Assembly: GCF_001907195.1 (NCBI RefSeq)
Contig: NZ_LVWA01000002.1
Span: 372,001 to 436,000 of the forward strand
Origin: Pontibacter flavimaris
GTDB taxonomy: Bacteria; Bacteroidota; Bacteroidia; Cytophagales; Hymenobacteraceae
Direction of reading: 5' to 3'
DNA length: 64,000 nucleotides
The notes below the pieces were generated by a model that made no database searches, was not told where the DNA came from, and worked only from the letters and a program-made list of their open reading frames with translations. The position numbers were made by a program, and so were the translations under genes. Below, piece by piece: positions 897 through 19,200 of this stretch. Each line of letters opens with the position of its first letter. Position 1 is the stretch's first letter.

Positions 897-2453
897 TTAT
901 TCACCTATGTTCACGATGAACTCATAGCTTCTGGCCACACATACACCGTTTTTCACGATAAAGCACTCCGCCCAGTGTGTCCCCTTATAGCTTGAGTACT
1001 CTTTCTGGTTTAGTCCTCCCTTGCCTAGTGTCCTAGAGTGATAAATGCCTCCTCTCAGTCCCTTGTTCTTCTCTGCCTCTTCGCCTGTATTCACTATCTG
1101 CCAATAGACATCAAACGGTTTAGGAACGTTGGTGGAGGCGACAAAGAAGATGTCACAATATTTAGGCACAATATTATTCCCTGTTAAAGTAACTCGCTTG
1201 CCTTTGCTGTTTTTGTAGTGACCATGTATTTCTACTTTATAGCGAATCACAACCGGCCACTGAGGCTGCTGCCTATGGGCTGCGTTTATAACAGCTAGCA
1301 AATAGGATGGCTGCTGGTACCTCTCAGTAATCAGGTTTTTGACACCAAGCTCTTCTACAGCCTCGTTAACCGATCGGGTGCCGAACAGCTCTTTGGAGTA
1401 TCTGTAAGCCTCGGTCAGATTGCATGACAGAAGAAGTGCAAAGTCCTCTTTGGCTTTCTCGAGCCATTCATAGAAGTTCTTCTCCCTTTCTGACTCTAAA
1501 AACCACCTGTCAGCGAAGTTTTCCTCAGGGTTAACAGGGTTGCCGACCCACTTGATGTACCTGTCAAGTGCTGGGCTGTATCTCTCCTCTATGAAGCTTT
1601 CCATGCGCTGGAGCACGTTGGAGAGAGCCAGGGCAACATCGGCCTCCCTATTATATGCCCTGGCGGCCAGAGTTGTGATGATGATGGAGATCGGCTTGCA
1701 TGGGTCTCCCCCATACATGATGTCCCTGTGCCTTTTAAGAAGCTGAACTACCCTCTGCAGGGGCTCTTTTCGCTTTTCGTAGACTGGGAGTGGCTCAACG
1801 GAGGCCCTGATGCTGCGGGACTCTAGCAGAGAAACTCTCGACCTTTCCTTGAACCATGCCGCATAGCCGAATGGATTGCTCTTCAGCCAGTTGGTCGTGT
1901 TCGTGTCAGATGTGTAATTCCCAAGCCGCTTGTCCGTGATACGGAGCGCCAGCTGATCCACCTGGCTTTGGTCCAAAGAGGCAAATGAACTCTCGAGCAA
2001 GGTATAGTGGCCGGTGCCTACGATGGCGGGCAGTATGTCCATGTGAAATTTAGCGGACTCAGCGTAAACGAGCGTCCAGCACCGGTTGCCTTCCTCATCA
2101 AGCATGCGTTTATAAATTTCATCCGCCTTCAGCTGCCCACCCACGGCATGCTTTAAGTGCCACTGAGCCCAGGCTGCTCCTTTTCCGCTTAACCTGCAGA
2201 CCAAGTCCACATCCAGCTCGTCATCCTCGATGAGAGGCCTTATCATGGTCCCTATCAGAAATGACCCCTGGGGTTTGATGTCAGGATTATAAGGACTAAG
2301 GGAGGAGCCTTCTTTCGACAGGTGTTTGGCAACAGCAGTATACCTGTCCACCACGGTTTGATATTGTGCCTCTGTAATGTCAAGGGCAGCGGCGATTTGC
2401 TCTAACAATTGACCTGTGCCTACTGTTTTTTTAAAAGGTGAGGGAAATAGCAT
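897..2453 (-). CDS. CBASS CD-NTase (cGAS/DncV-like nucleotidyltransferase) with AGS-C sensor domain
   Basis: 518 aa. This enzyme should make a cyclic oligonucleotide alarm signal on phage infection. The nucleotidyltransferase core is visible: GSFLIGT at residues 63-69, the metal-binding DVD at 81-83, and a third acidic residue D139 in FHMDILPA. The C-terminal part (about 385-518) has the features of the AGS-C domain: the CDIFFVASTNVPKPFDVYW and WQIVNTGEEA stretches, an LRGG, and a final THWAECFIVKNG...ARSYEF pattern. This domain is described as a fused sensor in CD-NTases. The gene is last in a minus-strand operon and starts 6 nt after the HNH-SAVED gene. No Cap2/Cap3 or HORMA/TRIP13 partners are present, so gene content fits type I CBASS. 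The exact nucleotide product cannot be read from sequence. Confidence 0.88.
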   Translation of the reverse strand: MLFPSPFKKTVGTGQLLEQIAAALDITEAQYQTVVDRYTAVAKHLSKEGSSLSPYNPDIKPQGSFLIGTMIRPLIEDDELDVDLVCRLSGKGAAWAQWHLKHAVGGQLKADEIYKRMLDEEGNRCWTLVYAESAKFHMDILPAIVGTGHYTLLESSFASLDQSQVDQLALRITDKRLGNYTSDTNTTNWLKSNPFGYAAWFKERSRVSLLESRSIRASVEPLPVYEKRKEPLQRVVQLLKRHRDIMYGGDPCKPISIIITTLAARAYNREADVALALSNVLQRMESFIEERYSPALDRYIKWVGNPVNPEENFADRWFLESEREKNFYEWLEKAKEDFALLLSCNLTEAYRYSKELFGTRSVNEAVEELGVKNLITERYQQPSYLLAVINAAHRQQPQWPVVIRYKVEIHGHYKNSKGKRVTLTGNNIVPKYCDIFFVASTNVPKPFDVYWQIVNTGEEAEKNKGLRGGIYHSRTLGKGGLNQKEYSSYKGTHWAECFIVKNGVCVARSYEFIVNIGE

Positions 2454-2459
2454 GTTCGG

Positions 2460-3608
2460 TTAGTAGTTTTGAATTTCAATAACTTGTCTAAAGCCCTCAG
2501 CCGCCGTGTTCTCATCATACAGCAGCAAGGACATATCTGCCTTGGGCATCCAGGAGCGGCCTAGCTCCACCGCTGCGCTAATAGGCATAGCAGGAAACAC
2601 GTGCAAGGGCACCTCAGAGCCGTACTGCGCCTTGATCTGATTCAGCAAAAGCCTGAGCTCTTTGCTAAAGCTCTGTAAATGTTTCATGCATTTGAGGAAG
2701 TCATTGAAAGGCTCTTCTGTAGTGAGGGTGAAGATCGCCACGTCCTCCCCAAGCACTCGGTGGATCCTGTCGTTGGTGATAGTAGCACTCAACGATAAAT
2801 TTAGGGCCACCTGTGCTTGCTTTTCCTTGGAGGAGTGGACAAAGTAGCGGACATCACTGTATTCACCATCTGGTTGCCATTTCCACGATTTAGGGTTGCG
2901 TATGGGCTGGTGAACTTCTGCGTGCTGGATGTCGTTGATCAGGGTCCCGAGCTTTACCAGAAGCGGAATCGGCGCAAAGGCAAAAATGGACAGGTGCTCT
3001 ATTTCTCCCCTACGCAGCCTTGGCTTTAGCTGCTCGGTGAAAAGGGTCTCTAAGCTCCTAATCTCTGACTGCCAAAAAAAGTCGTCTTTATCTCGCTGCG
3101 GACTGTTTCTCAAGCCTAAATCAATGGCGTGAGGGGCTGCCGGATAACGCTCAGGCGGCAAGTACCCTCTCACGGTCTCGAAGTTGAGAACAGGAGTATG
3201 CTCACCTACATTAGCGCGGTAGACAACAATATGACTCCTCTTGTCTACATCTATGTCGGTTAGTGCCTCAATCCTTTCCTCATGCTCGGCCTTCATTGCC
3301 TGAAGATACGCTACCGGATGGTTCTTAGGATCGGCTTCATCAATTCTGTTGTGGCACTCGTCACAAAGCAGCATAAGGTTTTCATAAGCTATCTCAAGTT
3401 TCTCGGAGAGCTCCTCGTCTCCACGTGGTCCATCTTCCTTAGCTGCAATGATATGAGAGATATAAGCCTTATTTATATCTTTCTGCATCAAGGAATCCCT
3501 CCACAGCACAATGTTGCACCCTCGGTACTGACAACGTCCCGCTGATTTCACCCACAGTTTTCTTGCCGTGCCCTGTGGAATGGCTTTTCTTGGTCTTTTA
3601 ACAGGCAT
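2460..3608 (-). CDS. cap5: CBASS effector: HNH endonuclease with SAVED domain (Cap5-type)
   Basis: 382 aa. The N-terminal part is an HNH nuclease: C26 and C31 (CQYRGC), H52 in YISHIIAA, N77, then C82/C85/H86 in LLCDECH, which fits a zinc-stapled beta-beta-alpha-metal fold. From about residue 150 to the end it matches a SAVED domain (LSIFAFAPIPLLVKLG; HVFPAMPISAAVELGRSW; MSLLLYDEN), the pocket that binds the cyclic nucleotide made by the neighbouring CD-NTase. In characterised Cap5 proteins ligand binding drives oligomerisation and destroys DNA, killing the cell. It is placed directly before the CD-NTase (6 nt gap) and 75 nt after the 89-aa gene. Family assignment is strong; ligand identity is unknown. 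Confidence 0.88.
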   Translation of the reverse strand: MPVKRPRKAIPQGTARKLWVKSAGRCQYRGCNIVLWRDSLMQKDINKAYISHIIAAKEDGPRGDEELSEKLEIAYENLMLLCDECHNRIDEADPKNHPVAYLQAMKAEHEERIEALTDIDVDKRSHIVVYRANVGEHTPVLNFETVRGYLPPERYPAAPHAIDLGLRNSPQRDKDDFFWQSEIRSLETLFTEQLKPRLRRGEIEHLSIFAFAPIPLLVKLGTLINDIQHAEVHQPIRNPKSWKWQPDGEYSDVRYFVHSSKEKQAQVALNLSLSATITNDRIHRVLGEDVAIFTLTTEEPFNDFLKCMKHLQSFSKELRLLLNQIKAQYGSEVPLHVFPAMPISAAVELGRSWMPKADMSLLLYDENTAAEGFRQVIEIQNY

Positions 3609-3683
3609 AATAGGTATTACTTCTCGATCTCCCCGGCAGTGTTCATCTGCAGAACGTTTCGTGTTATAATGAATTTGAAAGGT

Positions 3684-3953
3684 TTACACTAACAGCTTTA
3701 AGAGTTTTATGGCTATTGAGCCGAACTTTTCGCTGTTTTCCTTCAGTTTAAGGACTTTCTGGTTGTCGTTTGTTCCGGAATTGACAAGGGCTATCAGCTC
3801 CAGTAGCTTTTCCTTGTCAGCTTTCTCAGGGAAAAGCTCCTCGATTTCCTCCTCCTTAAGTCGGGTGATGCCAGAGATTATTGCCTGGTACTCCTCATCT
3901 GTTTGCTGCTGCGCCCTGCGCGCAGCGGCTGCATACTTATTCGGCTTTGCCAT
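3684..3953 (-). CDS. Small charged hypothetical protein in the CBASS-like operon
   Basis: 89 aa, no family recognised. The N-terminus is rich in Ala, Arg and Gln (KYAAAARRAQQQTDEEY), followed by an acidic, helical-looking stretch (LKEEEIEELFPEKADKEKLLELIALV) and a Lys/Leu-rich end. No signal peptide or membrane segment is seen, so it is probably cytoplasmic. Its start overlaps the end of the lipoprotein gene by 17 nt, which argues for translational coupling and a shared task with the lipoprotein and patatin. A regulatory or scaffold role is possible but not shown. Confidence 0.65.
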   Translation of the reverse strand: MAKPNKYAAAARRAQQQTDEEYQAIISGITRLKEEEIEELFPEKADKEKLLELIALVNSGTNDNQKVLKLKENSEKFGSIAIKLLKLLV

Positions 3954-4599
3954 TTGTTACTTTGTTTACTTTTTCCTTGAAATCGTTTACTAGGCTAGGG
4001 ATGTCCTCAGCTTTTGCTCCTGCCTTCAGCATTTTCTCCATTACCTGGTTTACCTTGTCAATGGGTATCAAGCTCTCCGTGTCCACATTGAGCTGCCGCT
4101 GTAGCTGCTTCCGTGTTTCAACTACCTCCGCAGCAGATCCCAGATGAGCTGTCAAAGCTCGATTCACATGCAGCATTTCCTGGTAATGCGCCTCGACTTG
4201 GCTGCGGATAAGTCTGTCCATCTCATCAACGGCTTTCATCATGGAGCTTCTCCGTCCATCAATGATCGGAATTGCTGCCTGGGCAAACTCTATGATTTCT
4301 GTCCCCTTTTCCTCATCGGTGCTGGCAGACTGTATGTTAGCTAAGACTCCAGACTCTTTAACAAAATTGGCCGTGAAGGAGGGAACATAATCTTCCTCCA
4401 TGAACTTGTCCACCTTGTCCTTCTGTAGACGGGTGTATTGGTCCAGCAGTCTCAGGTGGGACACGCGGGCATGCAGGATCATTTGCGTCAGCTCACCGCT
4501 GAGCTCAACGGAGGCCTTGGGGATAGTGACACAGCTCGTTATGAGCAGCAGCATTGCGGCTGCGCACAACGATAGTGTTCCTCTCAATGATTTTCTCAT
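3937..4599 (-). CDS. Lipoprotein of unknown function coupled to a patatin phospholipase
   Basis: 220 aa. The N-terminus is a lipoprotein signal: charged MRKSLRG, a hydrophobic run, then a lipobox ending LITSC with Cys23, so the protein should be membrane anchored outside the cytoplasm. The remainder is mostly helical and charged, with likely coiled-coil stretches (for example HLRLLDQYTRLQKDKVDKF and EVVETRKQLQRQLN). Its start overlaps the patatin stop by 4 nt (ATGA), and its end overlaps the 89-aa gene, so the three are tightly coupled. A periplasm-facing lipoprotein in a CBASS-like operon is unusual; it could sense envelope damage or pair with the phospholipase at the membrane. No family name is recognised. 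Confidence 0.75.
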   Translation of the reverse strand: MRKSLRGTLSLCAAAMLLLITSCVTIPKASVELSGELTQMILHARVSHLRLLDQYTRLQKDKVDKFMEEDYVPSFTANFVKESGVLANIQSASTDEEKGTEIIEFAQAAIPIIDGRRSSMMKAVDEMDRLIRSQVEAHYQEMLHVNRALTAHLGSAAEVVETRKQLQRQLNVDTESLIPIDKVNQVMEKMLKAGAKAEDIPSLVNDFKEKVNKVTNGKAE

Positions 4600-5651
4600 C
4601 TTGATTCATTGATAGTGTAAAGAGGAAGGGCGTATTCCACAGGGTCAGAGCTTTGCAGCAGCACCTCCACGATTCGGTCCAGTTCCTGAGAGCAGTTCTG
4701 CGCCGTCTCGATTCCCACTTCGACTAATGCCTGTATGTTTGGTTGCCTGGCATCGTCCATTTCCAGATTGGCGTTCCCCATTCTGGATGGTTGGATCCGC
4801 ACGTAGTTGTCCCCGTGCCCACCTGCTGAGAATATCTTTTTCAGGTGGTAGTCTGTGGTTTCGGAGGCACCTGCCATCATGATGTCGATCACCGGCCGAA
4901 TCCATCCGATGGCACCCCAGTCCTTTGCATTAGGATACCTATAGGGCGTATGCTCACTGCCTGTGCCTATAGAGACGATGAACATGTCCTTAGCGCTTGG
5001 TTTACCCACTGCGTTGCGCACCTCCGAGTAAGCGCAAAGTGCAGGATTGTTGGCAAAGACCCCGCCGTCCACCAATGGGTAACTTATCCCACTGCATGAC
5101 CTGACTAGGGCTGCCTCAAAATAGGTAGGCGCGGCGGAGGTGGCACGGCACACGTCCCGGACCAGGAAGTCCCCTCCGTTCCCCTTCTGCGCGAAGTCAT
5201 GCTGAGCGAAAAAGTGAGAAACTCTCCGTTCGATATCGTAGGCAGGGATCAGACAGGGTTTCAGCAGCTGGCTCAGTCTCAGGTCGCCAAAGTAGCCTTC
5301 CAGCAGGGACTCAAGAGCCGAAGCGTTATATTTCTCGTCCATCGTGCCGAAACCTGAGTGTATATTTTGCCACATACTCACATCGAAAATTTCTTTTCCG
5401 TTCTCCACATAGAGGTCAACTGCCTCTTTGGCAGAGAATCTGGCTTTCGTAGGGTCCCCATTTGAAGGGCAAAGGCTGATACAGGTCAGTATGCCGCCTG
5501 TACTGGTTCCAGCGAAGAAGTCAAAGTAGTCAGCAATGCGTGCCTGGGGATTACCTGTCCTTACCTGTAGTTTCTCCTCAAGAGCAACCAGCACTTGACC
5601 GGGTATGATGCCGCGAATACCGCCGCCGTCAATTGATAGAATTTTTTTCAT
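4596..5651 (-). CDS. capV: Patatin-like phospholipase, CapV-type effector
   Basis: 351 aa, a cytoplasmic patatin lipase. The oxyanion loop DGGGIRG is at residues 8-14, the nucleophile elbow GTSTG at 48-52 (Ser50), and the catalytic Asp is D195 in VDGGVFANNPA. The sequence and length fit CBASS CapV phospholipases, which break down membrane phospholipids when bound to a cyclic dinucleotide. It is the first long gene of the operon and overlaps the lipoprotein gene by 4 nt. Two explanations are open: a second effector for the same CD-NTase, or the head of a separate patatin-lipoprotein-small protein module. The catalytic assignment is strong; dependence on this CD-NTase is inferred from position. 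Confidence 0.85.
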   Translation of the reverse strand: MKKILSIDGGGIRGIIPGQVLVALEEKLQVRTGNPQARIADYFDFFAGTSTGGILTCISLCPSNGDPTKARFSAKEAVDLYVENGKEIFDVSMWQNIHSGFGTMDEKYNASALESLLEGYFGDLRLSQLLKPCLIPAYDIERRVSHFFAQHDFAQKGNGGDFLVRDVCRATSAAPTYFEAALVRSCSGISYPLVDGGVFANNPALCAYSEVRNAVGKPSAKDMFIVSIGTGSEHTPYRYPNAKDWGAIGWIRPVIDIMMAGASETTDYHLKKIFSAGGHGDNYVRIQPSRMGNANLEMDDARQPNIQALVEVGIETAQNCSQELDRIVEVLLQSSDPVEYALPLYTINESR

Positions 5652-6767: not shown

Positions 6768-7772
6768 TCAGCTAAAATGCTTAAGTTTAAAAGCGTGCTT
6801 CTGGTAACTGATTAGTTTCCGGTCCTCATAGTTTTTAATCCAAGCATCTTCCTCATGGCTTATCTCAACCAGATCAGAGGTTGATATTTTCCCAAAATTG
6901 GACCTTACTTTCTCCATAACGGACAGCTCCGCAGCACTAAATAGGGAAGCATCAAACGGCTGTAAACCTGAGAAGCTTTCCGCCACGTAGTCTGCTACCG
7001 ACCTTTGTTCAATGGAAACCAAGCCATCTTCCTGTAACTTCACGTACAGCTTGTCATATTCGGCAGGCACCGGTCCGAACTTAATTGCTCTGTACTCAAG
7101 ACCCGTTATGGAGTAACCGGTCCGCTTGTAGCAGCCGAAGTCCGCGTAGAAAAGCAACTTGTTCAGCTTTGTCTTGGTGACTCCTAACGTTTGGCTAAAG
7201 TATGAGATAATCTGGGCCACCTTATAGAAGTCCGGCTTATGAAAACCTGAGTACTCGCTGGGCAAATCGTCATGCGTTATCTGTCTTACCAGCAGGTATT
7301 CCCAAAGATTTTTTTCCCTATGCTCAATAAGCTTTTTAGCTCTCTGCTCAAATTTCTCCGTTTCCGAAAGGCTAAGCAAATGCTCGCTTGCCTTCACCTG
7401 CTTTATGAAATCCTCCGGCTCTCTAATGGCTAGGATAAGTCGGCCGTTAGCTACGGATGGAATCTCTCCGGTCTCATATAGTCTATACTGATTGGCACCA
7501 AATCCCAAGATTAAAGACATCTTACTAGCCGACACACCATACTGCTCCCGGATCTCCTTGATCTCGTCTGGAAACGGGATGCCGTATCTTTCACGGTACT
7601 GGTTGTATACCTGGTTCAGGTTGATGGAATCAAGTATGTCATCAGTGAACTGCTCTCCGCTGTCTTCGCACAAATAATAATGGTACATTACCTCAAACTC
7701 CTCCTTGCGGAATGGCAATTTTGCCGACTCCATCACTAACTTCATCTCTTTACCTGTTATTGGGCTTTGCAT
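6768..7772 (-). CDS. SocA/Panacea-domain antitoxin with MqsA-like HTH N-terminus
   Basis: 334 aa from the ATG at 7772, which directly follows the toxin stop; the upstream Met at 7817 lies inside the toxin gene. The N-terminal part has an MqsA/YgiT-like arrangement (SPITGKEMKL; FRKEEFEVMYHYYLCEDSGEQF) in which the usual zinc cysteines are mostly lost. An XRE-type helix-turn-helix follows (REQYGVSASKMSLILGFGANQYRLYETGEIPS). The C-terminal half is a SocA/Panacea domain (TKTKLNKLLFYADFGCYKRTGYSITGLEYRAIKFGPVP). Panacea antitoxins neutralise diverse toxins, and the HTH suggests autoregulation of the operon. It is second in a two-gene operon. Its role, island maintenance or anti-phage abortive response, is inferred. 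Confidence 0.82.
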   Translation of the reverse strand: MQSPITGKEMKLVMESAKLPFRKEEFEVMYHYYLCEDSGEQFTDDILDSINLNQVYNQYRERYGIPFPDEIKEIREQYGVSASKMSLILGFGANQYRLYETGEIPSVANGRLILAIREPEDFIKQVKASEHLLSLSETEKFEQRAKKLIEHREKNLWEYLLVRQITHDDLPSEYSGFHKPDFYKVAQIISYFSQTLGVTKTKLNKLLFYADFGCYKRTGYSITGLEYRAIKFGPVPAEYDKLYVKLQEDGLVSIEQRSVADYVAESFSGLQPFDASLFSAAELSVMEKVRSNFGKISTSDLVEISHEEDAWIKNYEDRKLISYQKHAFKLKHFS

Positions 7773-7773
7773 A

Positions 7774-8127
7774 TTACTTGCTTTTGAAAGGGTACACCAT
7801 TGGCTTTTCGGCCACATGAAACGAAATACAAATCACATTGGAGCCCGGCCGGCCCATGGAAACCTTAATATAGACCTCTTTTTTGCGTATGACTTTGCCA
7901 AACACCCACATTGGAGCAACACCATATAGGGTATCCTCCAGCGGTCCTTCACAGTAGTCATTCAGCTCGAGTTCCTCAATAATCTCCCTTCTGCTTGTTG
8001 GGGTAATCTCTAGCTCAAGTAAGGCTCTGCTATTTTTTCCTCGCTCATCTCGGAAGAGAATACTGAATACGCTCAACTTTGTGTGGAAATCGCTAAGGAA
8101 TCTCTTTACATCCTCTCTACTTACCAT
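7774..8127 (-). CDS. Putative toxin of the SocA/Panacea-type toxin-antitoxin pair
   Basis: 117 aa. I recognise the overall pattern (DYCEGP, MWVFGK, EVYIKV, ICISFHVAEKPMVYPFK) as a Bacteroidota family that usually precedes a SocA-domain antitoxin and is annotated as a toxin component. It may belong to the MqsR/RelE-like mRNA interferase group, but no catalytic residue can be assigned with confidence. The stop is 1 nt before the antitoxin start, so the two are translationally coupled with the toxin first. A promoter lies just upstream (8137-8168), leaving a very short leader. Confidence 0.65.
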   Translation of the reverse strand: MVSREDVKRFLSDFHTKLSVFSILFRDERGKNSRALLELEITPTSRREIIEELELNDYCEGPLEDTLYGVAPMWVFGKVIRKKEVYIKVSMGRPGSNVICISFHVAEKPMVYPFKSK

Positions 8128-8227: not shown

Positions 8228-10255
8228 TTAAACTTTAGAATCAAAAAGAAAAGTAATTTCGCAGGCCTTACACAACCGCTTTTCCTGGTAATACTCCGCT
8301 ATATCGCACCTGCCATTAGTTTTCTGGAAAATATCCAGTCCTCTTCCTAGCAAAATCTTCCAGCCATTATTCAGCTCAATGGAGCGGTCATGGATGTTTT
8401 CATCAAACTCAAAGGAGAAGAAGATGCCCGATGGCTCCAGCGAGTCGATAATTTCTTTAAAGGCTCCTTTCGCATTCTCCAGATAGTCTTCGTTGTTGCT
8501 GGTGATCAAGTGCAGCTTTATTTCCTGCCCCTCTACTTTTACTTTAGCGACCAGTGCGGTGAATTCCATGAAATTCCGGAGCTGATACGGCAGCCGGATA
8601 TAAGGGTCTGTTAGCTTTATGTCAGTAGCTCCTGCCAGATGCCTACCAAACAGTTTCTCATAGGAGACTCCTGTCTGGTTATCTCGGATAATCTTTTGAC
8701 CTGCTTCCGGTTCTGCCTCCTTAACCTCTGGTTTAGTTGCTACTACTATATCGCTTTCAGATGCTGCTTCAAACGTTGGCTCCGGAGCCTTGTCTTTAGC
8801 GCCATATTCGATAATTTCCAGCGTCTGTACTTCCTTCTTCGTGCCAGAGGATTTGTCTGTATAGCTGAAGTCAACCTTCTCAAAGGTCTCATCCATGATA
8901 TGAAGCTGCTCTTTCACGCGCCTTCTGCATTCGATAGCAAACTCCAGTAGCTCCTGAGCATCTTCTTTACCAAAACTACCATCCGGAAAGATTACCTTTA
9001 CCAGTCCTGAGAAGGTCTTGGAAATGGCTGTTTTATCACGGGTAGTAATGCTGTCGGATAGCTCAAAGAACTCGGTGTAGGCATGTGTGTGATCCTCTTT
9101 GCGCAGTTCTTTCAGTACCTCAGCCAGGTAATCGACAATAAAGCCATAGTCAGAGGTGAACATCTCGTTGCGAAGCTTCTGCACCTCCCAGCCTGGCAGG
9201 TAGGCGTGTATCCTGTCCAGGAAAGCGGTATCGTAATAGTCTCTTGGCAGCGCTTCGAATAAGTCAGAGTGCTTGAGCATGTAGGGTACAGAGTGATCCG
9301 TGTTACCGACAAATACCATGGAAGCAGAAGCGCCATATACCTGCGTACCCCTCGAAAAAGACTTGTTGGCCATGTAGTTCTTCAGGATGTCTACCAGGCC
9401 ACGATCCGCCCGCTTATCCTTGCCAGCGAATTCGTCATAAGCCACTACATCCCAATAGCCCACCAAGCCAATGTCACCGGTAGTGTTGTTCACGAAAAGC
9501 TTGGCTTTGGAGACTTCGCCTCCGGAAATAAGCATGCCGTGCGGCGACATCTCCGAGTAAATGTGTGATTTACCCGTCCCTTTTGGCCCCAGCTCAATCA
9601 GGTTGTAGTTATTCTCAGCGAATGGGATCAATCGGGAGAGCTGGAGGAGCTTAGAGCGGAAAGAAAACTCCTTTGGGTTCAGGCCAATCGACTGCATCAG
9701 CGCATCGATCCACTCCTCTTTCGAAAAGTGCCTGCGGGTGGCTTTGTACTCGGCAACATCAATGTTGGCTATTTGGATTGGTTTGAGGTTATCGATGATC
9801 CAGGGCGACACGTCGCGCTCATCGGATGGCATGTAGCCCATGGTGACGATGCACCACACCCCGCTGGAGAGCAGCTTCTTGTGGTCTTTCACAACCAGGT
9901 CACTGATAACCACCTTGTTCAGGCCTAGATTGGCAAAGTCGGCCTCGTACACATCTTTTCGGTCATTCAGCTTTACCGATACCTTGTCGATGATCCGGTG
10001 AGAGCCTTTTTCCCGGATAGTGGACTTGATCATCTGCGCCTCATCCCGGTGCACAAAGTGCCTGGAGATGATGTTTTTCACGTTCTCTACGCCCTCTGCA
10101 ATTGTATCCTCCACATCCGTAGCGCAGTACTGGCCCAGCAGGTACTCCAGTACGTAGGTAGGCACAATGGCATTTCCCTTCACCAGTTTAGTGAGATCCT
10201 TGCGCACCACCTTACCGGAGAAATGCGTGTTTAGAAGCTGATCAATGGTACTCAT
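8228..10255 (-). CDS. brxL: BREX protein BrxL (AAA+ ATPase) with a MITD1-like C-terminal domain
   Basis: 675 aa. The first 460 residues are a standard BrxL: Walker A GPKGTGKS at 223-230, Walker B-like WDVVAYDEFAG (about 268-278), and the BrxL stretch HGMLISGGEVSKAKLF. Canonical BrxL proteins end in a Lon-like protease domain. Here a low-complexity linker (about 470-525) leads into residues 530-675, which look like the MIT_C (PLD-like) domain of eukaryotic MITD1: YEKLFGRHLAGA, then DPYIRLPYQLRNFMEF, then IHDRSIELNNGW and GRGLDIF. No Lon Ser-Lys dyad context is apparent. It is last in the BREX operon, starting 2 nt after pglZ. BrxL helps block phage replication. The domain replacement is my reading and is not tested. 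Confidence 0.85.
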   Translation of the reverse strand: MSTIDQLLNTHFSGKVVRKDLTKLVKGNAIVPTYVLEYLLGQYCATDVEDTIAEGVENVKNIISRHFVHRDEAQMIKSTIREKGSHRIIDKVSVKLNDRKDVYEADFANLGLNKVVISDLVVKDHKKLLSSGVWCIVTMGYMPSDERDVSPWIIDNLKPIQIANIDVAEYKATRRHFSKEEWIDALMQSIGLNPKEFSFRSKLLQLSRLIPFAENNYNLIELGPKGTGKSHIYSEMSPHGMLISGGEVSKAKLFVNNTTGDIGLVGYWDVVAYDEFAGKDKRADRGLVDILKNYMANKSFSRGTQVYGASASMVFVGNTDHSVPYMLKHSDLFEALPRDYYDTAFLDRIHAYLPGWEVQKLRNEMFTSDYGFIVDYLAEVLKELRKEDHTHAYTEFFELSDSITTRDKTAISKTFSGLVKVIFPDGSFGKEDAQELLEFAIECRRRVKEQLHIMDETFEKVDFSYTDKSSGTKKEVQTLEIIEYGAKDKAPEPTFEAASESDIVVATKPEVKEAEPEAGQKIIRDNQTGVSYEKLFGRHLAGATDIKLTDPYIRLPYQLRNFMEFTALVAKVKVEGQEIKLHLITSNNEDYLENAKGAFKEIIDSLEPSGIFFSFEFDENIHDRSIELNNGWKILLGRGLDIFQKTNGRCDIAEYYQEKRLCKACEITFLFDSKV

Positions 10256-10257
10256 CC

Positions 10258-12753
10258 TTAAAAATCATCAAAATCGTTGGAGAAGGAGATGTTGAGCGTA
10301 TACATGTACTCCTTGTAAAGCTTCCATTTTGAGGATCCTTCCACCGGCTCTTCCAGCACCAGCTTCACGGTTTGGTTTTTATACTTGCCGCTGGCCTTAC
10401 TGCTCAGCTGGAAGCGGTGCTTTACCTCACGCTGGCGCTCACTGCCCTCCTCTATGTCAAAATTATAGCTAAACTGATCACTCAGCAACTCCCCGTCATT
10501 CGAGAAGATGGCGGCCCGTATAGTTCTTGGCTGGATAGAATCCGTGGCTACTTCTGTCTGCAGGAAAGACACGGACAGGATGTTTGTAGTGATCTTATTG
10601 GATTGCTGGATCACATCCACATCCACCTGCTTGAGGGTATCCTGGCGCTTCTTGGTGACTTTCACCAGCGGAATAACTACCTCTTGCAGGGAAGCTCCGC
10701 CATGCACGAATCTGGAACCTGCCCCTTTTACCCGGTGCCTGTTGATGGACTTTGGTATCAGCACATCAAAGTCTCCCGCCAGATTCAGCTCACCCGCTTT
10801 AAAGTGCCTGGTGCTGGCGTCGCCTTTCAGGTTCCTGCCCAGGATAAAGCGCCTGTTCTCTTTCCATACTTCCCCGTCTACCTGCACGTCCGAGAAATCT
10901 GACTCCTCCAGTGCAGTATGCTGGTATATAAAGCCATGATCGGAGGTGATGATCATATTGGTGCCGTTCATGTTGGCAATGCGCTTGATCACGTCCATCA
11001 GGAAGACCAGCTCCCTTTCAACCGCCTCAAACACCTTGTCCTCCGACGTCTTGTCGTCACCGGTCTTATCAATTTGGTTATGGAAGATGTAGATGACATC
11101 GTACTGCTTCACAAAGGCTCTGCCTTCAGTAGAAGAATTCATCTTCATGAAGTCTTCGGCCTGAATGCCAACGGCCTTGTAGCCTTCCAACGCTGCCAAA
11201 ACCTTGTTCCTTCCCTGCAGCCCTTGGCACGGCAGCTCATCCACACAAACTTCATCCGAGCCGTCTACTATAGAAAGCGACTTGTGAGGCAGCAGGGCCG
11301 CCATACCCAGCTGCGTGTAGGAAGGCATGGCTGTCAGCATGTACTGCAGCTCACCTTCATACCTGTTCTGAGCGTTCACTTTCTGCAGGTACTCATAGCC
11401 GCACTCGTAGCGCAGCGCATCGGATATAATCACGAACTGACGCTGTCCTCTGTTCAGGGTTGGCTCTACATGGTCCTTATAAAAGCGAGTCTGAGACACG
11501 CGTGGCAGCAACGGCCATTCCGGGGCAGCGTCGACCACAGCCTGCCAGTTGTTGTTTAGCTGCAGCAGCCAGTCATTGGAGTATACTTTCTCTACTTTCT
11601 CGAAGAGCGGCTTCAGCACCCTATCCTGGTTTTTATTGCGGTAATGCCAGATGAACTTACGGTAGTTGTAATCCACCAGGTGCAAATCCTGGCTGTAGCG
11701 CTTGGCTCCCTGCTCTATACTTGAAAAGGCTACGCTAGCGTATTTACGCACAAGCGAGATCATCTCCATAGCGTGGGAGATGGCCGCATAGAAGTCTTTG
11801 AACTCTCGGTACCAGTATTTGTTCTCCCGGTGCTTAACCACTTGGCTGGCTTTGTCATTGCCAATGCTTTCGCTAACCACCAGGTGAATCAGGTCGTGTA
11901 TGATTTTAAAATCTACCAGACGGAAAAGGTCATCCTCCAGGATATCCTCCAGGTTGGCGTCTTCCAGCAGGGGCTGCACGTTCAGGTCTTCCGCTATTTT
12001 GGCGGATAGTTGCTGAAAGGCTTCCTGATAGGAGATGGTGTCTTTCCATACCGATAATAAGAGGCTGGCATCCTTGGTGAGGCCGGAGCTTTTGGTAAGC
12101 GAGAACACATTAGAAAACACCTCCAGCAGGAAATCATAGATACCAGGCGACTCGGCATAATACTTAAAGCTGTCGCTAATTAGGCCCCAGTAGAACGTGT
12201 TCAGGTTATAGCGCTCCAACTCCCGATCCGGACGCTCGTTGCCATCGTTAAAGGCGCTGGCGTGTGCCTGGATAAAGGCAGTCAAACTGATGGTGTTGGT
12301 ACCGAACAGGACAGCCAGCATTTTGTAGCGGATGTCCCTGAACGTATCTTCTTTGCCCAACAGGGCTTTCAGCTTCTGCCTGCGGTCTTTGCTCTTGAAG
12401 AACTCGATGTGCTCTGTTACCAGGTCTTTAAGGCCGTAGTCCAGGCCAAGTTCCTGCAGGAAGGTAGCCTCCTGGTTGGTATGGAACTCGTAGTGCGCCA
12501 GCTCTAGGTCCTGCAGCCAGTTGTTTACATATGCTGGTCGCTTGCAGGTGCGGTATATCAGATACTGACCTTCCGTATCTTCCCTGGAAACTTTATGCTT
12601 GATGTAGAACTCGTTGTTCTGTACATGAATGCGCTCCACCCCAGGCAGGGCCAGTTCCTCAAACCTGTCTTTTAGCTCCTCCTTCTCATCGTGCCAGAAA
12701 ATAACCCTGTACCTTTCGAAAAGCTTGCGTAGCGAATCTTCTATCTGGCTCAT
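10258..12753 (-). CDS. pglZ: BREX type 1 alkaline phosphatase-like protein PglZ
   Basis: 831 aa, the full length expected for the type A PglZ of BREX type 1. The alkaline phosphatase superfamily core is visible: VIISDALRYECGYEY at about 441-455 supplies a metal-binding Asp, and IITSDHGFIYQ at about 601-611 supplies the second Asp-His pair. The N-terminal half is helical and typical of the family. PglZ is the hallmark BREX gene, needed for both methylation and phage exclusion. Its start overlaps the end of pglX by 4 nt and its stop is 2 nt from brxL, so it lies within one tightly packed operon. No truncation is seen. Confidence 0.92.
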   Translation of the reverse strand: MSQIEDSLRKLFERYRVIFWHDEKEELKDRFEELALPGVERIHVQNNEFYIKHKVSREDTEGQYLIYRTCKRPAYVNNWLQDLELAHYEFHTNQEATFLQELGLDYGLKDLVTEHIEFFKSKDRRQKLKALLGKEDTFRDIRYKMLAVLFGTNTISLTAFIQAHASAFNDGNERPDRELERYNLNTFYWGLISDSFKYYAESPGIYDFLLEVFSNVFSLTKSSGLTKDASLLLSVWKDTISYQEAFQQLSAKIAEDLNVQPLLEDANLEDILEDDLFRLVDFKIIHDLIHLVVSESIGNDKASQVVKHRENKYWYREFKDFYAAISHAMEMISLVRKYASVAFSSIEQGAKRYSQDLHLVDYNYRKFIWHYRNKNQDRVLKPLFEKVEKVYSNDWLLQLNNNWQAVVDAAPEWPLLPRVSQTRFYKDHVEPTLNRGQRQFVIISDALRYECGYEYLQKVNAQNRYEGELQYMLTAMPSYTQLGMAALLPHKSLSIVDGSDEVCVDELPCQGLQGRNKVLAALEGYKAVGIQAEDFMKMNSSTEGRAFVKQYDVIYIFHNQIDKTGDDKTSEDKVFEAVERELVFLMDVIKRIANMNGTNMIITSDHGFIYQHTALEESDFSDVQVDGEVWKENRRFILGRNLKGDASTRHFKAGELNLAGDFDVLIPKSINRHRVKGAGSRFVHGGASLQEVVIPLVKVTKKRQDTLKQVDVDVIQQSNKITTNILSVSFLQTEVATDSIQPRTIRAAIFSNDGELLSDQFSYNFDIEEGSERQREVKHRFQLSSKASGKYKNQTVKLVLEEPVEGSSKWKLYKEYMYTLNISFSNDFDDF

Positions 12754-15700
12754 ACTACCTCCGGTGTTTTTACCCAGTCAAACTCCGCTACTTTCTTTTT
12801 GGTCTTAGCATCGTTAAGGCCAGGAACGGCTTTTACAGCCTTGCCGAAAAGGTTATAGTTCACCAGTACGCCGTTGTCCAGGTCGATGGCAAGGCGCTCG
12901 GTGGCTAGCGGGTACAGGATCTCACGCTCATACTCCTGCAGCTCCAGCAGCACCTGGTCAATCCTGGCTCGCTCCTTAATGGCTTTGGTTTTCTCGGTGG
13001 CAGAACCGCTCACCTCTACTCTATCCAGGTGCTCGCGGCGTGTGCGCAATTTCTCCTGGTACTCGCGCAGGTATTTGTTGAGTATGTTGTTGACTGTATC
13101 CGGGGTATAGCGGTGCATGTAAATCAGCACGTTGAAAGACCCTTGAGGCGAAGAGAATTGCCAGTAGATCGGGCGCTTCTTATATCGGCGCACATGATCG
13201 TTGTAGAAGTCTTTCACGAAGTATTTGCGGATGTCTTTGCCGAGGCACTCCTCCACAAAAGCCAGGTTCTTGGCGAAGTTGGCCTCGCCGAACGTTACTT
13301 TCAGGAACTCGTGGAAGCGGCCCACAATGTCGTCTTCGAACCACTCGTCGTCGAGTATTGGGATGATGTTGTCGGCATCGGGCAGGAAAGAGACCTCCTG
13401 TGCTTCCTTCTCCAGTTTCTGTAAGTAGTCTTGCAGCGTTTCGCCCTGATTGGCCAGTATAAGCCCCAGCTTGTCCAGCGAGTAACGACCGAACATGCAT
13501 CCCACGGCGTAGCTCACGAACTGGGCCATCACTTCATCGGCATGAAAGACTAATTCGCCGTTTTCAACGCTGGTTTCTTGTTGGAGGATGGTGATGTCTT
13601 CTAGGGGAACATCAGGAGTAAGTTCGTCTTGGAGTTCGTAATTTTCAATGAATTGTTTGTTAAGCTCCTCTTCGTTTTTATGGAGTTGAAAAAATTTATT
13701 ACTCCAGTATTGCTGGAATAGGTCGTAAGTTTCCTCCAAATCTTGTCCCTTTATTTTGACAAATTCGTTTTTTTGAAAATTCCATGACAACTCGCTTAAA
13801 TCCCATTCAGCTTTTGATATATCAACAGAATTACTCACAGCTTTTTCGAAGCTTTCACTCACAAACTCTGTAAAAGGAAGATTAGCAATATCTCCAGTTT
13901 GGAGATTTATAGTGGGATTAAGAACTTTGGTTATTTCACTATGAAATTTAGTATTCAATATTCCTAAAATAAACAAGCTTCTCTTATCAGCAAAATAGCT
14001 CATACCACCAATATCATAGATAAAACCTTTAGGAAAATACCTAAATGAACAGCCACCAGACGTTACTAGTCCCCAAGAAATAGATTCTTTGAAGAAATAC
14101 TCTAAGTTTTGTGGTCGAGAACGCAGTTTTCCTTTATCATCTTTGAAATTTTTAATTTCAACTCCATCATTAAACCAGTTCACAAGGTACTCGTGATTTC
14201 CATACCACTTTCTCTTACTCCCACCCTTATTATAAGGAAACCAAACTTTATTACTAAGTTTTGCATCTTGAGCATTTAATGCGTTATAACAAGTTTGGTC
14301 TAAACCGACTTCATACCATAGCCTAATGAATCTATTGTTATCAGCTGTTGCTAACCCTTGCTTTGCATCCCCTACATCTGATAACTTTTGGGTAGTTGAG
14401 AAGATATCTTTTACCTTATCGCTCAACCAATAGCCGATTGGACTTCCTGGAATCTTGTTAAAATCACTTTGATTCGTTAGATAAAAACCATAGTTCTTAT
14501 CTAAGAATAGACTCCTAATTTTATCAACAGAACGAACATTTACATGGTTTTTGAATAATCTTCTATATATGCCCTTCTCTTCTAATTGAAAGGACCTTTT
14601 AATAGTGAATGCAACAGTTCCGAAATCAGAACCAAAAATTCCCCTCCCTAAATGTAAAAGCGTTTCTATCTGGACTGTCTTTAGTAATTTCTTCCTGAAT
14701 TTCTCAAAAGAAGACAGGAACATCCATGATGGTAAATTTATCATACCAACCAAACCATTCATCACTACTTGATTCCAAGCTCTTTCCATAAAGCAAGTCA
14801 TCAAGTCTGATTTACTGTCCGGATAGTTTTGCTTTATGAAATCAGCAAGTGACGTGTTCATGTTGCCACCACCCATGTACGGCGGGTTGTCCACGATACA
14901 GGTATATTTCTGCCCCAGCAAGCGCAGTTGCTCCATCGTGATTTTCAGCTGCTGCAAATCGTACTGCTCGTACATATCAGCCTGTACCAGCTTCTCCTCA
15001 ATTTTCCGCAGCACATTCTCTATCTCCGGCAGACCGGCATGCGGCACAATCAGCGAGCCCAGGTTGGTGGCTTGTCGCATGTGCTTCAGGTCGTGCAGCA
15101 ATTCATCGGATGGGCTTATGCCTATACCTGCCAGCGCATTTGCTGCCTGTTTCTCGTCCAGCGTCAGGTCCTGGAAGCACAGGATGTGCGGCTGTGGCAC
15201 CTCGCCTTTCTTGAAGAAGCGGCGCTGGTAGCTGCGGGCCTTCATCATCAGGGCCATGGCCGCCAGCTGCGCTGCCCGCTCGTCTATCTCGAAGCCGAAG
15301 AGGTTGTGCTGGATAATCAGCTTCGGTATCTCGCTGGCGCTATATCCCTCCTCCTCGTAAATCTTGGTGAGCAACTCAAAGCCATACACCAAGATGTGCC
15401 CCGAGCCGCAGGCCTGGTCCAGCAAGGTGATTTCCTCCGGGGAGCTTATCTTCAGGTAGTCCTCGCTCTGCAGCGAAGCCGATTCTATAAAGTATGGCAT
15501 GTATTCCCCGAGACGAGAGTTGGGCTTGTTCTGCAGCCACAGTTTGCCCACGGTGTTCTGCACCATGTACTCCACAATCCAGCGCGGCGTAAAGAGCTGC
15601 GTGGCGGCCGGTATGTCCTCTTTCTTCACCTTGGCCTTGGAGGCAAACACCTCATCCTTTTTCTCGGAGATGTAGAACTGGTAGAGCCAGCCGATAATCT

Positions 15701-16283
15701 CCACCTGCTGGCAGTCTTCGTCGGCCATACCTTCGCGCACGTCGTGCACAATGGAGAACTCGCTGGTCAGGTCGTCTGGCAGCAAGAGCTCAGTGTAGTC
15801 GTTTATGCGCTCAAACAGGAAAGGCAGCACCGTGTGCAGGTGGTTGCAGGCCGCGATCAGGAGCACCTTATAAGCCTCATTCTGCGGGTTAGCGCTCGGC
15901 ACCCTGCCATCCAACAGGTCGTATACTTGCTGGGCGTTTACCTTCAGGTCTTCGGAGATGTGCCCTTGCTTGGCCTCGTCCAGCAACTCCGGGAAGGTAT
16001 AGCCCTCCTTCGGGGAGATCACCCGAATGTCGAGTGGCTGATAGTTGTTTACGTCCATGAATCGCAGCGCTATAAAGCGGTTGAACCAGGTATAAGCTAC
16101 CTTCTCAATCAACTGTGCTTTACTAGTTCTGGCAAGCTCTTCCTTCAGCGCATTTACTTGCACTGCTTTCTCACGAAGCTCTACAGTATCCGTATTCAGA
16201 ACGTACTCCAGCTTGGCCCCTACCTGCTCTATTAGTTTCTTTCGCGCCTCCTGGGCAAATCTCTTTAGCTTATTGGTATTCAT
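12750..16283 (-). CDS. pglX: BREX type 1 adenine-specific DNA methyltransferase PglX
   Basis: 1177 aa. PglX methylates an adenine in a non-palindromic site to mark self DNA. The SAM-binding motif I (LLDQACGSGHILVYGF) is at about 287-302 and the catalytic NPPY of an N6-adenine methylase at 466-469 (IVDNPPYMGGG). After the catalytic motif, roughly residues 478-903 (14850 down to 13575) the DNA becomes plainly AT-rich compared with both flanks, and codon choice changes. This is where the target-recognition region is expected, so specificity may have been swapped by recombination. The C-terminal part is family-typical and returns to normal composition. It overlaps pglZ by 4 nt and lies 3 nt from brxC. 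Confidence 0.92.
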   Translation of the reverse strand: MNTNKLKRFAQEARKKLIEQVGAKLEYVLNTDTVELREKAVQVNALKEELARTSKAQLIEKVAYTWFNRFIALRFMDVNNYQPLDIRVISPKEGYTFPELLDEAKQGHISEDLKVNAQQVYDLLDGRVPSANPQNEAYKVLLIAACNHLHTVLPFLFERINDYTELLLPDDLTSEFSIVHDVREGMADEDCQQVEIIGWLYQFYISEKKDEVFASKAKVKKEDIPAATQLFTPRWIVEYMVQNTVGKLWLQNKPNSRLGEYMPYFIESASLQSEDYLKISSPEEITLLDQACGSGHILVYGFELLTKIYEEEGYSASEIPKLIIQHNLFGFEIDERAAQLAAMALMMKARSYQRRFFKKGEVPQPHILCFQDLTLDEKQAANALAGIGISPSDELLHDLKHMRQATNLGSLIVPHAGLPEIENVLRKIEEKLVQADMYEQYDLQQLKITMEQLRLLGQKYTCIVDNPPYMGGGNMNTSLADFIKQNYPDSKSDLMTCFMERAWNQVVMNGLVGMINLPSWMFLSSFEKFRKKLLKTVQIETLLHLGRGIFGSDFGTVAFTIKRSFQLEEKGIYRRLFKNHVNVRSVDKIRSLFLDKNYGFYLTNQSDFNKIPGSPIGYWLSDKVKDIFSTTQKLSDVGDAKQGLATADNNRFIRLWYEVGLDQTCYNALNAQDAKLSNKVWFPYNKGGSKRKWYGNHEYLVNWFNDGVEIKNFKDDKGKLRSRPQNLEYFFKESISWGLVTSGGCSFRYFPKGFIYDIGGMSYFADKRSLFILGILNTKFHSEITKVLNPTINLQTGDIANLPFTEFVSESFEKAVSNSVDISKAEWDLSELSWNFQKNEFVKIKGQDLEETYDLFQQYWSNKFFQLHKNEEELNKQFIENYELQDELTPDVPLEDITILQQETSVENGELVFHADEVMAQFVSYAVGCMFGRYSLDKLGLILANQGETLQDYLQKLEKEAQEVSFLPDADNIIPILDDEWFEDDIVGRFHEFLKVTFGEANFAKNLAFVEECLGKDIRKYFVKDFYNDHVRRYKKRPIYWQFSSPQGSFNVLIYMHRYTPDTVNNILNKYLREYQEKLRTRREHLDRVEVSGSATEKTKAIKERARIDQVLLELQEYEREILYPLATERLAIDLDNGVLVNYNLFGKAVKAVPGLNDAKTKKKVAEFDWVKTPEVV

Positions 16284-16286
16284 CTG

Positions 16287-19200
16287 CTATAGCGTAATTC
16301 TCTTGTTCTCCTGAATTTGTTTGAGGTAGGCTTCCCGGATGGTGTTCACGTAATCGTCCACGTCCTGGGCTGTCTCTAGCGTGCCTTTCTTGAACTTTAC
16401 CTCTACATTGGCGCGTCGTACATATACCACCGGCCGCTCCTGCACATCATTGCCCGCGCCACCGCCACTCTGGCCATTACCTCCTGGCACCGGCACCGGA
16501 TCTGGTTTGGGCAGTAGGTTCTGAATTTCGTTCAGCAATCGCACTTTCAGGTCGTTTGTACCAAGGGCATACTGCCTGATGTTGGAGATGTACCGGTTGC
16601 CCTTGATCCTATAGATCACCTCATCCAGCGGCCTTAGAATATTCTCCTGCTGTCTTTCGGTAAGCTTCAGGAAGTCAGCGTTGGCAGATAACTGCTCTTT
16701 ATGCTGCTCCACCGTCTCTACCGCCTTCTCTTTCTCCTCCTCCAGCTTGCTCAGCACTTTCTTGCTCAGTGCTTCCATAGCAGCCTTGGCTTCGCGTATG
16801 CCTGTACCGGCATAAGGCTTTTTGTCGGCGTAAACCGTCCACAGCGTCTGCAGCTCGTCCCCCTCAATATGTTCAAAATTGGACTGATCGCCGTTCAGGA
16901 AAACCTTTATCTCATCGTAAATCTTCTTCTGGTCACTGTTCCAGAAGCGCTTGATCGGGTCCAGCAGATCTTCCTTGGTATCCAGCAGCTCGTCTTCAAA
17001 GTCCTTCAGGTTCAGCAGGAAGTAGTTGAGCTCTTTTTGGGCTAACCTATCCAGCGTATCACGTAAAGGCTCTAAAGAGGCCGTAAAAGGATAGCTGTTG
17101 CGCTGCGCCACCAGGTCCCTCACAAAAGTCAGCTCATTGTTAAGCTTGCTTCTGAAGGCTAGTGCCACATCCTTTGCCTCGGTAGCCGCACACGTCTCAT
17201 CAAACAATTCATTATATACTTCCTTCAGTGCTCTTACCTGCTTCGGGTCAAAGTCGATCTGCGGCTCCAGCAAGGTGTTAGGCTGTAGTCTGTTGTTCAG
17301 AAGCGAGGCTAGCACCTCCTCATCGCCCAGGAGGTTTGAGTTTTGCCTAACATCCAGCTTCCCCCGCTTGTAAAGCCTGGCCACCACAGTCCAGATGGCA
17401 TTTGGGTACCAGCCGTAGGGTTTTTTCACAAACTGATCCCGGATATCGGTCAGTGAGGTGCGGTCAGACTGCTTTTTTCTTCTGTTGATATAGTTGAGCA
17501 CCTCATTCTCAGGCTCTGAGATAGTATTGTCATCAGTGCCGAACAGATCATTCATCTTAGTCTTGATTGTCTGCTTAACAGTATCCTCAGAGAAAGCTGT
17601 CGCACCAAGCATTTTCAGATTTGGGTAAGCGATTTTCACCAGGTCCTGGAAAGCGTTGATCACCTTTGTCCTGCCGTCCGAGGTGTTCCCGATCTCATGC
17701 TTGCTGCCGTTCAACAGTATATCGGCTTCTCCCAGCAATTTCTGCAGGAGTAGTCTCAGGGTGCGCCTTCTCTCTCCGTTCTGTGTTCCCTTATCGTAGA
17801 GCAGACGCTTTATACTTTCCTTGTTGTTGGTGGACTGGCTCTGCTTGATGTACTTATCCGTTTTGAGGTAAAGCCGCACATCTTTTAGCAGGCGCTCATC
17901 GGCAGGCAGCACGGCCATCATCATGGTATTATAGCCCAGCGTTTGCGCTCTCAGCAGGCCCGGGTTCTCATAGTTATCGTTGTTAGGCGTGATTACGTCT
18001 ATCACCAGCTCCTTCTCCCTGCCAAGTATCACACCGTCTATCTTATGGGTGAACTCGTAATCCTGCTTGTTCTCCGCATACCTGATCTTGGTATCCCGGA
18101 TAACCTCATCAAAAATCAGTTCGTTCAGCAGCTGCGTCACACTCGATTCATCCACATCCGTGGCTTTAATCTCCTGCTCGATGTCCTTCTCATCATCGGT
18201 CAGGAACTCGTACAGGTCACCGTTCCGCTGCACATAAGTCTGTGCTTCCAGCAGGTTAAGCGCCTCCAGCACCTTTTTGTCGTGCGCCTTCAGATCGATA
18301 TGTATACTGTCGATCATCAGCACCGATATATTGCGGGTGGTGGTTTTAAAGTTGGTGAAATACTTTACCAGGAAGAGTGCCTTGAGCACCTTGATGGCAA
18401 AGGTATCGTCCAGGTTTTTCTCTGCCAGGGTAATAGAAGTCTGTATCTCCCCTCTAATGGTGGAGCGAATACCCTCATAAAGCAGATCAAAGGTAACGAG
18501 CGCATCGGTATCGCAATCGGCCATGCGCAGCACCACGTCCTGAAACACGCCCAGCATGGAGCGCTCCCCAACCGAGGCATGCTTCCCCTGAAAGGCGTTG
18601 TGGTTAGACAGCGCCCGGATACATTGCTGGAACAGGTCGAACTGGTAGGGCACAAAAGGGTATTTGTTGACGAAGTTCTTCTCTTCCCTGTAGCCTTTAA
18701 ACTGCACTCCCACCTCTGAGAAGGAAAGCAGTGTTTCGAGATTAGAGTGCTGCTTTTGCCAGGTATGTGCCAGCAGGGCCTTTGGCTCCGCCTTCTTCTG
18801 GAGCAGACGCTTCTCGATCACCTCGTCCACGTTGGCTGAGGTAAGCGGTACTTTGATCTTGAACCTGGCCTGTATTCTGGAGAAGTCGTTTTGCTGGGAC
18901 TTGTTCATGTCGCCCACTACCTTCTCCATATCCTCCTGAGAGGTCACCAGCACCCAGGCCTGGCCTTTTGTCTTTGTCGCCAGTGTCTCGGCTATCGTCT
19001 GCAGGTTGAGCATCAGCTTGGTGTTGTCGCTGATGTACTGGCCCACCTCATCCACGAAGAAGTTCAGCCTGAAGCCTTTGGGCTTTGTTTTGATGTAGTC
19101 GTTTACCTTGTCGCAAAAGTCCAGGATGGAAATGGCGCTGTCATCGCGCAAGGTCTTGATGATGTTCTGATACCCTTCCTGGGCAGGGCCGAGCAGCGAA

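Follow-up and report, generated by a model that had tools for sequence, protein, structure and literature searches.

The last gene of a type-1 BREX operon in Pontibacter flavimaris encodes a BrxL protein whose C-terminal part had been described, in a preliminary description made from the sequence alone, as a domain related to human MITD1 (MIT_C), which raises the questions of what this tail is, how widely it is carried by BrxL proteins and what it may do there. In the current work these questions were addressed for a stretch of 64,000 nucleotides (the window) and for relatives of its BrxL in other genomes.

The brxL gene and its surroundings

The BREX operon of the window is complete, with brxA, brxB, brxC, pglX and pglZ all present and brxL as its last gene. 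The corresponding features are:

8228 to 10255, minus strand: brxL open reading frame (675 aa; order BrxL_N, AAA+ (BrxL_ATPase), linker, MIT_C)
9833 to 10225, minus strand: BrxL_N domain (residues 11-141; Pfam E 1.8e-49)
8864 to 9802, minus strand: BrxL AAA+ domain, BrxL_ATPase (residues 152-464; Pfam E 3.6e-131)
8720 to 8794, minus strand: flexible linker of BrxL (residues 488-512; pLDDT <50)
8249 to 8671, minus strand: MIT_C (PLD-like) domain, at the place of the Lon-like domain (residues 529-669)
10258 to 12753, minus strand: pglZ (BREX-1 type A; TIGR02687, 737.6 bits)
12750 to 16283, minus strand: pglX (BREX-1 adenine methyltransferase; NF033452, 1342.7 bits)
16287 to 19826, minus strand: brxC (NF033441, 1100.1 bits)
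19823 to 20407, minus strand: brxB (PF08747, E 4.5e-39)
20409 to 21017, minus strand: brxA (PF08849, E 1.9e-36)

The window protein belongs to the BrxL proteins of type-1 BREX, combining BrxL_N with an AAA+ domain whose Walker A motif is intact (G223-x-K-G-T-G-K-S230, the residues of which are invariant in a 66-row alignment), within a full operon. It is matched by the BrxL model TIGR02688 at 601.8 bits (cut-off 329.3), and the PADLOC BrxL model PDLC02508 spans it end to end (991.7 bits, residues 1-670). Its N-terminal/AAA+ part is 99% identical to that of another Pontibacter locus (L027), and among the best 80 of at least 577 relatives the closest by MIT_C are Pontibacter loci, with 94% for three of them.

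A CBASS-like set (897-5651) is located beside the operon, and the pair of open reading frames at 6768-8127 is a candidate Panacea-type toxin-antitoxin:

897 to 2453: SMODS/AGS_C cyclase of the CBASS-like set
2460 to 3608: SAVED protein of the CBASS-like set
3937 to 4599: unassigned 220-aa open reading frame of the CBASS-like set
4596 to 5651: patatin phospholipase of the CBASS-like set
6768 to 7817: MqsA-like HTH and Panacea/SocA protein, just after brxL
7774 to 8127: 117-aa open reading frame overlapping the Panacea/SocA gene, with no Pfam, PADLOC or NCBIfam match

Identity and predicted fold of the tail

Both the coordinates and the motifs (DPYIR, IHDRxI, NNGW and GRGLD) that had been given for the MITD1-like domain were recovered in the brxL open reading frame. 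The Pfam family MIT_C (PF16565; curated cut-off of 25 bits) matches residues 529-669 at 143.1 bits (E 7.3e-42) over profile positions 1-140 of 142, and phmmer against the PDB aligned residues 522-663 with human MITD1 4a5z (E 1.5e-23) and residues 520-662 with 2ymb (E 3.3e-23), in agreement with the domain assignment of the preliminary description. The same search aligned the solved BrxL of Acinetobacter sp. NEB 394 (8EMC/8EMH) with window residues 4-470 only; that protein is alike in its N-terminal and AAA+ domains but ends in a Lon-like domain which pairs rings, and has no MIT_C. The Lon-type model TIGR02653 covers residues 3-474 only, at 624.3 bits, just below its cut-off of 628.25, and neither these sequence comparisons nor a Foldseek search of the fold found a Lon-like domain in the tail, so that MIT_C indeed stands where the solved BrxL has its Lon-like domain. 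Assignment to the Lon-tailed BrxL class was rejected, as MIT_C occupies the residues beyond the Lon-model matches, and so was assignment to MITD1 proper, a eukaryotic ESCRT cofactor, the N-terminal part being BrxL_N and AAA+ and not an MIT domain.

An AlphaFold2 model of the domain, based on an 83-sequence alignment, reached a pLDDT of 95.6 and a pTM of 0.91; its top five Foldseek matches were MITD1 chains (E ~1e-17 to 1e-16, TM 0.87-0.88), and it superposes on human MITD1 with Z 23.2 and 1.3 Å over 150 residues at 36-37% identity (VIA-align). The comparison with MITD1 proposed in the preliminary description thus returned the expected match and no Lon fold, and the full-length Pfam match and the predicted MITD1 fold place the tail in Pfam MIT_C. 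Sequence and model searches thereby confirm it as a MITD1-like domain of predicted PLD fold. In the full-length BrxL model (pLDDT 84.7) the linker 488-512 is disordered, which is why the domain is regarded as tethered.

Beyond MITD1, Foldseek returned the archaeal chromatin protein TrmBL2, followed by human PLD1, PssA, F13 of vaccinia and Zucchini, with E values of 3e-5 to 5e-4. The VIA-align Z values were 10.1 for SauUSI, 9.4 for PssA, 9.1 for F13, 8.9 for NucT and for PLD3, 8.6 for the NgoAVII R-protein and for Streptomyces PLD, 8.1 for Nuc and for Tdp1, and 7.9 for BfiI. Considering that rows within 1 Z of one another count as ties, PssA is tied with SauUSI, and nucleases and lipid enzymes appear to match the predicted fold about equally; this mixture implies that the fold alone does not pick the substrate. 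The model has the PLD fold expected of a PLD-superfamily nuclease, a fold that MIT_C has in common with the PLD-type restriction nucleases SauUSI, NgoAVII R and BfiI at an identity of ~7-10%. These three enzymes carry HxK motifs and have proven nuclease activity, and SauUSI is, by its PDB title, an ATP-dependent restriction endonuclease. A sequence search with a profile of 83 MIT_C domains gave no match to the classic PLD nucleases of the PDB up to E 10, matches beyond MITD1 being at chance level, and Pfam PLDc_2 matched 2 of the 83 members (best E 0.004).

Conserved residues and selection

Residue counts were taken over 117 distinct MIT_C domains; this set includes the exceptions L012, L033, L066, L135, L149, L150 and L019, which are absent from the 83-row alignment A2. 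The conserved motifs are:

8582 to 8608, minus strand: D550-P-Y-x-R554...Q558 (D in 116, R in 115 with one A and one gap, Q in 117 of 117 domains)
8369 to 8392, minus strand: H622-x-R624-x4-N629, HKD-like (H in 116, R in 117 of 117; last position D in 72, N in 43, S in 2)
8333 to 8347, minus strand: GRGLD, residues 637-641 (G639 and D641 in 117 of 117, R638 and L640 in 115 of 117)

Eleven columns are invariant in A2 (D550, R554, Q558, H622, R624, W632, R638, G639, L640, D641 and R660). Among the 117 domains W632 is kept in 114, the exception at D550 is an E in L150, and the A at R554 belongs to L149. The motif histidine is replaced by Q in L012 only, which marks this domain, judged from its sequence, as a candidate for a naturally inactive variant. 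The domain is acidic, with a mean net charge of -6.2 over the 83 domains and of -3 in the window.

The most strongly conserved positions resemble a pocket of the HKD type. The motif of the window departs from the H-x-K-x4-D of HKD nucleases, its histidine alone being canonical, and N629 at the aspartate position has its counterpart in human MITD1, which also has N; the window domain is not classed as an HKD nuclease, though it may work like one.

In comparison with L027 the dN/dS ratio is 0.033 for MIT_C, 0.49 for the linker and 0.013 for the N-terminal/AAA+ part. For MIT_C, the comparison with L029 gives 0.109, and in that with L152 the synonymous sites are saturated. The low dN/dS shows that the tail is under purifying selection, and a chance match or artefact is ruled out by the Pfam, phmmer, AlphaFold2, superposition and dN/dS results.

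Distribution of MIT_C-tailed BrxL

MIT_C was found above its cut-off in 19 of the 296 genomes of a phylum sample, in 6 of the 395 genomes of an overlapping class sample and in none of 14 well-known genomes used as a control, two of which contain the BrxL AAA+ domain. This AAA+ domain occurred in 27 genomes of the phylum sample at 38 places, 30 of which yielded loci; one was the window's own, and the other 29 were classified. A recognisable BrxL N-terminal/AAA+ part was present in 27 of these 29 loci, and a survey of their C-termini, as proposed in the preliminary description, gave 15 with MIT_C, 8 with a Lon-like domain, 2 with a short tail and 2 cut by a contig end. MIT_C and the Lon-like domain were the only large C-terminal domains met on BrxL, bar ~98 unassigned residues in L157. 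The tail had been regarded as a clear architectural departure, a view at odds with its presence in 15 of the 27 classifiable loci.

The published record points the same way. In passages of Rakesh and Krishnan 2026 (PMC12839542), which credit the finding to Li et al. 2025, an 'HKD-endoDNase' tail with a K-to-R change is said to replace the Lon-like domain in 1030 of 2913 type-1 BrxL taxa. We infer that this tail is MIT_C, because it is PLD-like with HxR and because MIT_C and the Lon-like domain were the only large BrxL tails met, in which case these taxa would also bear witness to how common MIT_C is; the word MITD1 is absent from the main text of PMC12839542, in which 'mitigate' is the sole 'mit' word. 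The 'HKD-endoDNase' BrxL and that of the window are both of type 1 with a PLD/HKD-type tail and K-to-R, whereas the window has N for the D of the motif. A passage of PMC12715929 names PF16565 as one of the BREX families of an earlier study, so that the link between MIT_C and BREX is already in print at the family level. Given the full-length PADLOC model and the survey in PMC12839542, the architecture is known, and the window locus is an ordinary further example.

With one genome scanned for each species, at least 577 relatives were confirmed, and the best 80 of them were analysed; these are mostly Bacteroidota, and other phyla are therefore under-sampled. At 87 of 94 loci (the best 80 of at least 577, plus 14 viral-contig loci) a single open reading frame joins MIT_C to the AAA+ domain of BrxL. 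The remaining seven comprise two at contig ends and five unfused cases, namely L028 and L100 with in-frame stops, L058 with an N run, and L083 and L104, which are other proteins. The stops are located at 5880-6110 in L028 and 5900-6060 in L100, at or just before MIT_C, with the AAA+ part open, and may reflect a natural tail-less BrxL, decay or an assembly error.

These two interrupted relatives are what speaks for MIT_C being a decaying remnant without a present role, an explanation which is highly improbable, since the dN/dS of 0.033 against L027 contradicts decay, while the 87 intact fusions and the 11 residues invariant in 83 domains also argue against it.

Among 72,556 plasmid records 25 matched MIT_C, including some from Actinomycetota, Bacteroidota and both Alpha- and Gammaproteobacteria; for 17 of these matches the annotation reads 'BREX system Lon protease-like protein BrxL', a name that hides the MIT_C tail. 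Used as single query, the window domain had no match at E 0.01 among 50,697 phage records. Viral contigs yielded the 14 loci already counted and, with another query, 10 further matches, partly on the same contigs; viral-contig relatives were found neither for the MIT_C of L149, described below, nor for the tail of L183.

Evolution of the tail swap

Trees built from the N-terminal/AAA+ part place the MIT_C-tailed BrxL proteins at three positions: a main clade that includes the window (support 100/100), a second clade consisting of L117, L173, L179, L182 and L183 (100/100), which a Lon-tailed row joins at 90/94, and L014, placed beside short-tailed BrxL. A single clade of all MIT_C-tailed BrxL was rejected (AU p 2.4e-6; 33 MIT_C rows versus 15), while a single clade without L014 was not (AU p 0.21). 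As the rejection vanishes once L014 is omitted, only the separateness of L014 is secure, yet L014 is itself a long branch, at which long branches meet on this tree, and the separateness of the second group rests on the support values 90/94. The simplest reading is that MIT_C was fused to BrxL at least twice, that is, a repeated gain; a single gain with later losses is a possible alternative.

The L014 protein (8540-10570) belongs to a candidate type-4/Ssp-like locus, L165 (499-12427), where its neighbours are SspB-like (DUF4007), SspC/BrxC-like and weakly matched PglZ genes. According to a passage of PMC12839542, type-4 BrxL has no C-terminal extension, and the MIT_C-tailed BrxL of L165 would fall outside this published wording.

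Other proteins with MIT_C

L066 (7147-8076) and L104 (5539-6459) encode proteins of at most 310 aa that share an alike, unassigned N-terminal part followed by MIT_C. McrB- and McrC-like genes adjoin both, and the L066 region is flanked by a BREX brxL on one side and by an EVE-AAA/McrC pair on the other. In L083 (5326-6456) an AbiEii nucleotidyltransferase is fused to MIT_C, 3' of a DUF6088 gene; L016 (790-3414) has MIT_C followed by 11 Sel1 repeat matches, and L151 has MIT_C fused to an IF2_N-like region. In L149 (5631-8474, Candidatus Thiodictyon syntrophicum) a dynamin-like GTPase (Dynamin_N E 2.8e-20) ends in MIT_C (E 2.7e-21). In L164 (1-3468, Rhodococcus opacus) AbiEi/AbiEii genes directly precede an MIT_C-tailed brxL.

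Three of the six non-BrxL carriers (L066, L104 and L083, as opposed to L016, L151 and L149) thus occur in a restriction or abortive-infection context, which favours action on nucleic acid, although caution is advisable in view of the acidity of the domain and of its fusion to a dynamin-like GTPase. The preliminary description had proposed that the tail links the AAA+ ring to a membrane or nucleic acid surface instead of to proteolysis. The nucleic acid part of this proposal is the favoured one. Its protease part did not hold: in passages of PMC10164562 and PMC12839542 the Lon-like tail of the solved BrxL is described as lacking catalytic residues and as joining two rings tail to tail, and no protease is therefore lost in MIT_C-tailed BrxL.

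Its membrane part found little support, given the mixture of nucleases and lipid enzymes among the nearest folds and the restriction or abortive-infection setting of several carriers, and is kept in play by the dynamin fusion. A tail that ties the BrxL ring to the membrane, for example at the site of phage DNA entry, would agree with MITD1 as the closest fold, with the lipid enzymes among the next-nearest folds and with the dynamin-like GTPase of L149; the PLD fold of MITD1 is said, in the title of Hadders 2012, to bind membranes. Such a tether is nonetheless unlikely: a single dynamin fusion faces two proteins linked to McrBC and the occurrence on BrxL at 87 of 94 loci, the dynamin-borne domain has A for R554 and V or L instead of W at W632, the residues common to MITD1 and bacteria are those of the HxR/RGLD pocket, and MIT_C is acidic overall.

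A putative function for the tail

We consider the MIT_C tail to be a tethered PLD-type nuclease or DNA-end binder, with a probability of about 0.5 and with catalysis as its conjectural part. Domain identity, predicted fold, conservation, purifying selection and the disordered linker are directly supported. The protein would keep the N-terminal and AAA+ domains of BrxL, with MIT_C on a flexible linker replacing the inactive, ring-pairing Lon-like domain. Together with the other BREX components, the ring would load onto unmethylated phage DNA, to which it would present several copies of MIT_C. Single-HKD nucleases work as paired domains. Two MIT_C domains may pair in the same manner, perhaps pairing rings as the Lon-like tail does, with H622/R624, perhaps together with D641 and D550/R554/Q558, forming a putative phosphodiester-binding site that would nick or cut DNA, or hold DNA ends.

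The nuclease or DNA-end binder is favoured by the type-1 operon, the PLD fold, the conservation of H622/R624/D641, the dN/dS of 0.033 and the disordered linker, and further by the McrBC-linked proteins of L066 and L104, the AbiEii fusion of L083, the BrxL of L165 and the independent naming as 'HKD-endoDNase'. It is weakened by HxR in place of HxK, by N in the window and N or S in 45 of 117 domains at the HKD aspartate, by Q in L012 and by the acidity of the domain; by the tie of PssA with SauUSI, the Z of 8.6 for Streptomyces PLD and the Foldseek order that starts with TrmBL2, PLD1 and PssA; and by the dynamin fusion and the absence of any PDB PLD nuclease among the matches of the 83-domain profile to E 10. 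Several of these points would also suit a non-catalytic docking or pairing module, which might pair rings or hold a BREX subunit or DNA: the HxR motif, the frequent N or S and the acidity, to which may be added the naming of MITD1 as a membrane binder in the Hadders title and the replacement of a tail that PMC10164562, in the passage concerned, presents as inactive and ring-pairing. We regard such a module as a rather doubtful alternative, though a more probable one than the membrane tether, considering that few residues of the domain are as well conserved as those of the putative active site, beyond what pairing alone seems to require.

Proposed close kinship with human MITD1

Human MITD1 (4A5Z, 2YMB) is like the window BrxL in its MIT_C domain, including the N at the HKD aspartate, and differs in having an N-terminal MIT domain instead of an AAA+ ring. 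As described in part of PMC9477494, the MIT domain binds ESCRT-III and MITD1 acts at the midbody in cytokinesis. By BLAST, human MITD1 is 47-50% identical to four second-group BrxL tails, 44% to the MIT_C of L150 and 32-40% to main-group BrxL tails. In a 32-row MIT_C tree it groups with the second BrxL group alone (97/99), and in an unrooted 28-row tree it is sister to seven second-group rows (100/99) versus 20 other bacterial MIT_C domains; this analysis, with one eukaryotic sequence, no root and only 151-154 columns, gives no direction of transfer, and the midpoint lies on the branch joining the two halves of the tree. Human MITD1 keeps all 11 columns that are invariant in the 83 bacterial domains of A2, and for this reason may keep the same putative phosphodiester-binding pocket.

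As a tentative proposal, held with less confidence than the function suggested above, the PLD-like domain of MITD1 and the tail of one BrxL subgroup would share a closer ancestor than BrxL tails do among themselves, the human domain being one that was domesticated from phage defence (or, with lower probability, BrxL having taken a eukaryotic domain) and that may retain the phosphodiester-binding pocket of a BREX effector. In the open-access journal literature that was searched, no paper linking human MITD1 with BREX was found.

The published 'HKD-endoDNase' tail would thus be tied to a curated family and to a solved relative, MITD1, and to this it can be added that MIT_C-tailed BrxL proteins do not form one clade and that one of them lies in a type-4/Ssp-like locus. 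A domain of a human ESCRT cofactor is thereby placed beside a bacterial defence domain, with up to 50% identity, and, if the proposed kinship is true, a domain of human cytokinesis would be closely related to one of phage defence.
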